A stretch of DNA of 64,000 nt from Trichlorobacter thiogenes (GTDB lineage Bacteria; Desulfobacterota; Desulfuromonadia; Geobacterales; Pseudopelobacteraceae). Below the pieces are notes generated by a model that worked only from the letters and a program-made list of their open reading frames with translations, made no database searches and was not told the origin of the DNA. Within the stretch, counting starts at the first letter, position 1; each line of letters starts with the position of its first letter. The stretch is from NCBI RefSeq assembly GCF_900167465.1, contig NZ_FUWR01000001.1, positions 1-64,000 of the forward strand, given 5' to 3'. Below are positions 51,471 to 53,345 of the stretch, piece after piece. Both the position numbers and the translations under genes were made by a program.

Positions 51471-52544
51471 CTACATAGCACCCTTGAGCCGATAGACATA
51501 CGCCAACACTTCCGCAACAGCAGCATAGAGTGACTCTGGAATTTCCTGATTCTCTGACACCTGATCATAAAGCTCCCGGGCCAGAAAACGGTTTTCAACC
51601 AGCGTAACCTTGTTTTCACGCGCCATCGCCTTGATTGCAAGAGCCATCTCATCCATCCCCTTTGCGATTACCATCGGCGCAACCATCTTACTGCGATCAT
51701 ACTTAAGCGCTACGGCAAAGTGGGTCGGGTTAGTGATAACAACATCTGCCGTAGGAATAATCTTGGTCAGGCGCCTCCGGGCTGACTGAAACTGCATCTT
51801 CTTGATCTTGCCCTTTACTTCGGGGTTACCTTCCTGATCCTTATGCTCGTCCTTGACCTCCTGCTTGGTCATCTTGAGATTCTCGGTATAGCGCCATTTT
51901 ACGTAGAACATATCAAAGATCGAAATGATAATCATAATCCCACAGGTGTGGGTAACAATCTTAAATGCCACATGCCCAGTGTATGCCAGAATGCCATTTA
52001 CGTCAGATTCAGCAAGCACCATGATATTTTGTAATTCGTCCCGTAGCACCTGGTAGGCAATCCAGCCGATCACAAAAATCTTGAGTAACGACTTCAGAAT
52101 CTCTACCAAAGCCTCCTTGTTAAACAGCTTACCAAAACCGCTGATAAAATTAAGCTTATCAAAATTAAAGCTGATTCGTTCCCATTGGAAGTCTATACGC
52201 CCATTATCCTGAACAATATGGGCCAGCACTCCGGTTGCCATGATGGTCAGGATAATGGGCGCGATCAGCAGCAAAATTACACCAAAAATACGCAGCAGCA
52301 TGGTGTAGACATTCCGCTCGGTTAGTTCAAAACTACCAATCTGGGAATAGACCTGCACAGTCGTACTTTGCAACCCATTCATCAGATAACCGCCCAGCAG
52401 ATATAAAGCAATAATACCAGCCAACAGCGTAAGACTCTGGCTAAGCATCTGCGAAGCTGGAGGGGCCCCTTTCTCCCTGGCCTTCTCCAGCTTTCTACCG
52501 GTCGGTTGTTCTGTTTTAGAGTGTTTGTCGTCGTCTTCTGCCAG
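51471..52544 (-). CDS. flhB: Flagellar export switch protein FlhB (probable CTG start)
   Basis: The frame from the first ATG (52448) gives 325 residues and lacks the family N-terminus. Extending upstream to the fliR stop (52548-52550) adds 32 residues reading AEDDDKHSKTEQPTGRKLEK and on, the conserved FlhB start. No ATG, GTG or TTG lies between; the only likely initiator is the CTG at 52544-52542, with GGGGGGA 6-7 bases before it, giving 357 residues. Four membrane helices follow, then the cytoplasmic domain with the self-cleaving NPTH (ITNPTHFAVAL). FlhB switches export from rod-hook to filament substrates. Confidence 0.9.
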   Translation of the reverse strand: MAEDDDKHSKTEQPTGRKLEKAREKGAPPASQMLSQSLTLLAGIIALYLLGGYLMNGLQSTTVQVYSQIGSFELTERNVYTMLLRIFGVILLLIAPIILTIMATGVLAHIVQDNGRIDFQWERISFNFDKLNFISGFGKLFNKEALVEILKSLLKIFVIGWIAYQVLRDELQNIMVLAESDVNGILAYTGHVAFKIVTHTCGIMIIISIFDMFYVKWRYTENLKMTKQEVKDEHKDQEGNPEVKGKIKKMQFQSARRRLTKIIPTADVVITNPTHFAVALKYDRSKMVAPMVIAKGMDEMALAIKAMARENKVTLVENRFLARELYDQVSENQEIPESLYAAVAEVLAYVYRLKGAM

Positions 52545-52547
52545 GAA

Positions 52548-53345
52548 TCATCCCCCCTTTGCAAGCAGCCTGAAGATCGTTGCCACCTGGACCGCCAGAT
52601 TACCAAACGAGAGCTCCAGCACATGAAAGAAGAGCAAAAGGGTCATCCCCAACACCATAAACCCAAGCCCGATATTAAGCGGAAAGCTGACCATAAATAT
52701 GTTCATCTGGGGAAAGGCGCGGGCCATGATGCCAAGAACAACACTGGTTAAAAGCAGTGCTACCATAACCGGCGCGGCCAGCCTGATTCCCAGAATAAAG
52801 ACATCAGAAGTGGCTTTCACCAGAAAATGAATCAGCGCCTCGCTCATCTTCCAGCCACCCAGCGGTATGACCGTAAAGCTGTCAACAATAGCCCGGATAA
52901 ACACATGGTGAATATTCAAGGAGAGAAAAAACAGGGTAGCCAGCAGGCTCTGCATGACCGACATGATCTGCATCTGATTACCCATGGAAGGATCAATTAC
53001 CGATGAGATACTAAAGCCCATCTGAAGACCAATAATTTGACCGCTGAATTCAACGGCGGCAAAGATGATCTGGGTCACAAAGGCCAGCGTGAGACCGATC
53101 AGCATCTCGCGCATGACCAGCAGTCCCAGGGTAAAGGCATCACCAGGAATGGGTGGAGGGGCAATTTTCAGGATTGGATAGCAGACCAGCGTTATGGAGA
53201 GAACCGCTACAATCTTGATGCGGGTTGGCAGACGACGCCCACCGAACAACGGAAGGGCAGCGAACAGACCTCCAATGCGGCATAGTACCAAGGCGAACAG
53301 AAATACATCGGCTTGACTTGGCAGCGGTGATACAAAGGGGAACAT
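52548..53345 (-). CDS. fliR: Flagellar export membrane protein FliR
   Basis: 265 residues with about six hydrophobic segments typical of FliR (FLFALVLCRIGGLFAALP; GEALI-type loop; PLNIGLGFMVLGMTL). Part of the FliPQR export core. Its 3' end carries GGGGGGA that appears to act as the flhB SD. Confidence 0.93.
   Translation of the reverse strand: MFPFVSPLPSQADVFLFALVLCRIGGLFAALPLFGGRRLPTRIKIVAVLSITLVCYPILKIAPPPIPGDAFTLGLLVMREMLIGLTLAFVTQIIFAAVEFSGQIIGLQMGFSISSVIDPSMGNQMQIMSVMQSLLATLFFLSLNIHHVFIRAIVDSFTVIPLGGWKMSEALIHFLVKATSDVFILGIRLAAPVMVALLLTSVVLGIMARAFPQMNIFMVSFPLNIGLGFMVLGMTLLLFFHVLELSFGNLAVQVATIFRLLAKGG

Follow-up and report, generated by a model that had tools for sequence, protein, structure and literature searches.

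Near-cognate start codons in bacteria are mostly viewed as annotation noise or as a special case of infC, the textbook example, which starts at AUU in E. coli and at AUA in S. aureus. Automated annotation normally permits just ATG, GTG and TTG. PMC9845219 summarises a survey of 69 bacterial genomes in which about 0.024% of ORFs were annotated with CTG starts. In PMC5622118, switches from AUG to CUG account for 2 of 61,358 reconstructed AUG starts, and ACG is not among the start switches in the part of that study considered here. CUG initiation complexes in bacteria are less stable than those formed at AUG, GUG or UUG (PMC11497404). In S. aureus, the non-canonical starts of ccpN (AUA) and cvfC1 (AUU) are conserved, have extended Shine-Dalgarno sequences and yield about 10% of the AUG output (PMC13009471). 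FlhB, the subject of this analysis, is present as one copy per flagellar export gate, beside a single FliR (PMC7064499), and a natural FliR-FlhB fusion is found in Clostridium (PMC7064499; NCBIfam NF009411).

The flhB gene in the window (i.e., the whole stretch of 64,000 nucleotides of Trichlorobacter thiogenes DNA that was analysed) resembles each of these systems in part. As in infC, a conserved near-cognate start is combined with a strong Shine-Dalgarno sequence, a combination that limits output in infC; the infC start, however, serves autoregulation by its own product, and the infC codons mismatch at position 3, whereas the CTG and ACG of flhB mismatch at position 1 or 2. We know of no role of FlhB in initiation. 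Like ccpN and cvfC1, for which the reduced yield was measured, flhB has a lineage-conserved start behind an extended Shine-Dalgarno sequence, but the codons and genes are different, the flhB site lies partly within the 3' end of fliR and, unlike in ccpN and cvfC1, the flhB codon has switched among CTG, ACG, TTG and ATG within one family. Either the Clostridium fusion or the flhB junction would tie FlhB output to FliR, although the two proteins here are separate and joined just by a neighbouring stop and start. The GUG/UUG starts with stronger Shine-Dalgarno sequences described in PMC5622118 follow the same compensation logic as flhB. A literature search, with most subscription journals outside it, found neither a core flagellar gene with CTG/ACG starts throughout a family nor any near-cognate start of flhB. 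As far as our searches show, this type of device is already known, and what is new is the gene concerned, the codons used and their swapping.

The flhB Locus

The window was analysed as genome G000, contig C29, which has Trichlorobacter and Geobacter MAGs as near named relatives, and the flhB locus was read on the minus strand, which carries a flagellar cluster including fliP, fliQ, fliR, flhB and flhA. The identity of fliR and flhB was established with family models, and fliP, fliQ and flhA were named from their translations. The fliR gene (positions 52548–53345, minus strand; 213 bits with TIGR01400) ends with TGA at 52550–52548, 3 nt upstream of and in the same frame as the start of flhB (51471–52544, minus strand; 357 codons, CTG to TAG). 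The minus-strand junction consists of the fliR end ...GCA AAG GGG GGA TGA, then TTC, then the CTG at 52542–52544, followed by GCA GAA GAC GAC GAC AAA CAC TCT AAA ACA GAA CAA CCG ACC... The first-pass annotation had proposed from this arrangement that flhB starts with CTG and that only TTC-CTG-GCA lies between the fliR stop and the conserved FlhB N-terminus. The three codons do follow the stop, but the TEQPT motif does not adjoin them, as 8 further codons (GAA GAC GAC GAC AAA CAC TCT AAA) intervene. It was right that the conserved N-terminus is encoded ahead of the first ATG (52448), which lies 32 codons downstream of the CTG, and a reading of the sequence confirmed that no near-cognate codon other than the CTG precedes TEQPT. 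The flhB frame contains no ATG, GTG or TTG from the fliR stop up to the ATG at 52448. The G-run noted upstream is indeed a good Shine-Dalgarno sequence, 7–8 nt from the CTG; the complete element, AAAGGGGGGA (52551–52560, minus strand), is located within the last codons of fliR.

Read from the CTG, FlhB scored 387.8 bits with TIGR00328, above the curated cut-off of 349.25, and 401 bits with PF01312, and its translation contains the NPTH autocleavage motif of the cytoplasmic switch (ITNPTHFAVALKY). Its residue 3 aligns to residue 3 of the solved FlhB in PDB 6s3l, so that the register is exact. The 32-codon stretch before any ATG, GTG or TTG (52449–52544, minus strand) shows coding-type conservation against the relative G005.

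Start Codons of flhB in the Family and in Outgroups

Among 68 flhB genes read from the window's family, CTG was found in 34, ACG in 29, TTG in 2 and ATG in 3 at the start, i.e., a near-cognate CTG, ACG or TTG in 65 of 68 and CTG or ACG in 63 of 68. All 14 genomes with flhB in the window's genus have CTG, a sister genus has ACG, and TTG occurs in genus g8. In one ATG gene, that of G067, the junction is TGA CCT ATG GCT; the sister genes read TGA CCT ACG GCT, and the G067 gene is nested in the ACG clade. The other two (G020 and G066, the latter being L162) are flhB copies that have diverged and lack the conserved G-rich junction; on the tree, the G020 gene (L163) places with another family, which suggests replacement by transfer. 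G069 carries two flhB copies, one with ACG and a second one with CTG (L112, contig C55); this CTG copy may be foreign, because the assembly has 9% contamination.

Outside the family, order-level relatives had ATG at the homologous codon in 20 of 20 readable matches, obtained with a search pattern that would equally accept CTG, ACG or TTG. ATG was also found at this codon in 15 outgroup flhB genes that were read directly, a set overlapping with the 20 order-level matches. In other families of the phylum, 31 of 35 genes had ATG and 4 had GTG, with one further gene unread. Residue 2 of FlhB is Ala, Ser or Gly in almost every gene, as would be anticipated behind a starting Met. Thus, one position alternates between ATG and three codons that differ from it by a single base, and Ala, Ser or Gly almost always follows; such a pattern marks a start codon, and the conservation of the position in the family and the outgroups indicates that the CTG is not there by chance. 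Given the homologous position, the register with the solved FlhB, the family-wide conservation and the naturally occurring ATG of G067 at this position, it is near certain that the CTG at 52544–52542 is the flhB start, as the first-pass annotation had it.

The 685-kb contig was set against about 738 kb of G005, and 373 conserved genes were scanned for coding-type conservation upstream of every ATG, GTG and TTG; the scan is blind to near-cognate starts with an ATG close behind. A first version returned 76 raw candidates, most of which were conserved leaders or overlapped upstream genes. The sole clear case was flhB (1 of 373). Its codons 1–32 differ from those of G005 by 10 synonymous and 2 non-synonymous changes (2/1/9 by codon position); the next-best candidate had 2 synonymous and 1 non-synonymous changes. 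A genome-wide relaxation of start choice is therefore unsupported. An altered initiator tRNA was likewise rejected, as the initiator tRNA anticodon is a normal CAT. Apart from flhB, this genome seems to have another near-cognate start: infC (encoding IF3; L165 at about 1469–1471, on contig C17 near 23700) reads AGGAGGTGCCGCC ATA GCT GCC CCC ACC, where the ATA, preceded by AGGAGGT, is apparently the start codon.

Conservation of the Start Codon and the Shine-Dalgarno Sequence

A tree of 40 flhB genes from the family can be reconciled with 3 start-codon changes, which fit one switch each from CTG to ACG, from CTG to TTG and from ACG to ATG. The steps per start-codon position are 2, 2 and 0, compared to a median of 15 (range 4–21) for 30 fourfold sites of flhB. 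The tree suggests that the CTG start arose once, and many of the 65 near-cognate genomes are therefore not independent. The ATG in G067 and the TTG in genus g8 show that a weak codon can be dispensed with.

The Shine-Dalgarno sequence sits in Lys-Gly-Gly codons of fliR and is nearly invariant: positions -13 to -10 are unchanged in the 40 genes vs. the fourfold median of 15, and its synonymous positions (i.e., the third base of AAG and that of GGG) are free of changes. The 16S 3' end was not found in the genomes examined, so the duplex energies were computed with a common 16S tail. With this generic tail, which was assumed for the organism, the predicted Shine-Dalgarno/16S duplex of the window's flhB is -16.3 kcal/mol; under the same assumed tail, predicted values are about -14 to -16 kcal/mol in the family vs. 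-3 to -12 kcal/mol in the ATG relatives without the junction. In the ATG revertant G067, a single case also calculated with the assumed tail, the AAAGG part is one base short and the duplex is -14.0 kcal/mol. Predicted RNA folding at the fliR-flhB junction was not above that of shuffled sequences (z of 0.18 and 0.94).

Alternative Explanations

Initiation at the internal ATG (52446–52448, minus strand) would yield a shorter FlhB. This is the first canonical in-frame start, and the shorter protein still narrowly passes TIGR00328 (351.6 vs. 349.25), but we consider the reading very improbable. Its product would lose the first 26 PF01312 profile positions, at a cost of 36 bits with TIGR00328 and 40 bits with PF01312. 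The first-pass annotation had named initiation at this ATG as a possible refutation of the CTG start; it would drop a conserved N-terminus worth about 36–40 bits of the FlhB models, and the refutation fails. The changes in codons 1–32 (10 synonymous vs. 2 non-synonymous) indicate constraint on the protein, and these codons align residue for residue with the solved FlhB and hold its conserved TEQPT..R.L..AR..G segment. The same annotation had asked for a check on sequencing error. An error in sequencing or assembly, the real sequence being ATG or an in-frame ATGA overlap, has some appeal in that ATG is one base change away and the GGATGA junction resembles the usual overlap; its probability is negligible, however. 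The arrangement is shared by tens of independent genomes, some of them assembled as a single contig, and the sequence around it carries third-base changes; this conservation of the CTG-type junction refutes an error.

Two further readings take translation from fliR into flhB. Because fliR and flhB share a frame with TTC alone between them, readthrough of the fliR TGA could produce a FliR-FlhB fusion like that of Clostridium, and the two proteins do match neighbouring parts of the fused model NF009411, albeit far below its cut-off. FliR and FlhB do not form a single continuous frame, as the TGA intervenes; moreover, L007, L008, L014 and L032 have tandem stops (TGA TAA, TGA TAG or TGA TGA) and the fliR stop of L030 is a TAG out of the flhB frame, which excludes readthrough as a general mechanism. 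Readthrough, to which we assign a very small chance, would also leave unexplained why the second codon is always near-cognate and why G067 has ATG there. Alternatively, the ATG overlapping the fliR stop (52551–52549), found as ATGA in most family members, could initiate and be followed by a +1 frameshift into flhB. In the window, this out-of-frame ATG opens 11 codons (52516–52551, minus strand) and then reaches a dead end; it directly abuts the G-run with zero spacer, no conserved slippery site is present, and GTG replaces it in L050 and G087. It is absent from G057 and the second copy of G069 (GGGGGGCTGA) and from L030 of G021 (GGGGGGATAG), and the genomes lacking it exclude the frameshift, which we regard as extremely improbable for the window as well. 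A different question is why the CTG persists. It could be a frozen accident, in which an early change from ATG to CTG was compensated by a stronger Shine-Dalgarno sequence and low initiation brought no gain. The single origin on the tree, the return of one lineage (G067) to ATG and the tendency of weak starts to pair with stronger Shine-Dalgarno sequences, as described in PMC5622118, are in line with this reading. It is nevertheless less likely than not: ATG is one substitution from CTG or ACG, yet there was a single return against a fourfold median of 15 changes, and the switch to ACG, a still rarer start, is hard to square with drift toward better starts.

Proposed Mechanism and Implications

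The reading that we prefer, with a probability of about 0.88, is that flhB is initiated with fMet at the CTG, where the weak codon, the strong Shine-Dalgarno sequence and the adjacent fliR stop together would keep FlhB at a low level linked to that of FliR. The ordinary initiator tRNA would start flhB at 52544–52542, and FlhB would thus begin with fMet rather than Leu. The weak CTG codon would set a low initiation rate, while the strong Shine-Dalgarno sequence and the fliR stop, at a distance of 3 nt that fits the geometry of termination coupling, would supply sufficient ribosomes, either re-initiating or recruited locally. Such an arrangement would hold FlhB scarce and coupled to FliR, its one-to-one partner in the export gate. 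The suggestion of the first-pass annotation that a CTG start may hold down the FlhB level is plausible, and the conserved CTG/ACG start is probably a setting of the FlhB amount.

We more tentatively suggest, at odds short of even, that the near-cognate codon is a selected dial, by which poor P-site pairing and the strong Shine-Dalgarno sequence would make the flhB start depend on ribosomes ending at fliR (and on IF3 activity), giving near one-to-one FliR:FlhB without a fusion. If so, the swaps from CTG to ACG, from CTG to TTG and from ACG to ATG would be natural variants of the dial. The value of flhB in this respect is that a core flagellar gene has held CTG/ACG family-wide while its fourfold sites changed many times, and that the ATG revertant G067 provides a natural control and thereby a clean test of whether weak starts are selected output settings. 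In the window's family, flhB is likely truncated by automated annotation, since CTG and ACG are outside the normally allowed ATG, GTG and TTG. Beyond the window, a separate 94-aa protein with an FlhB-like C-terminal domain (L002; G000:C29:79951-80181; 62 bits with PF01312) is encoded, and it is found in most relatives too.
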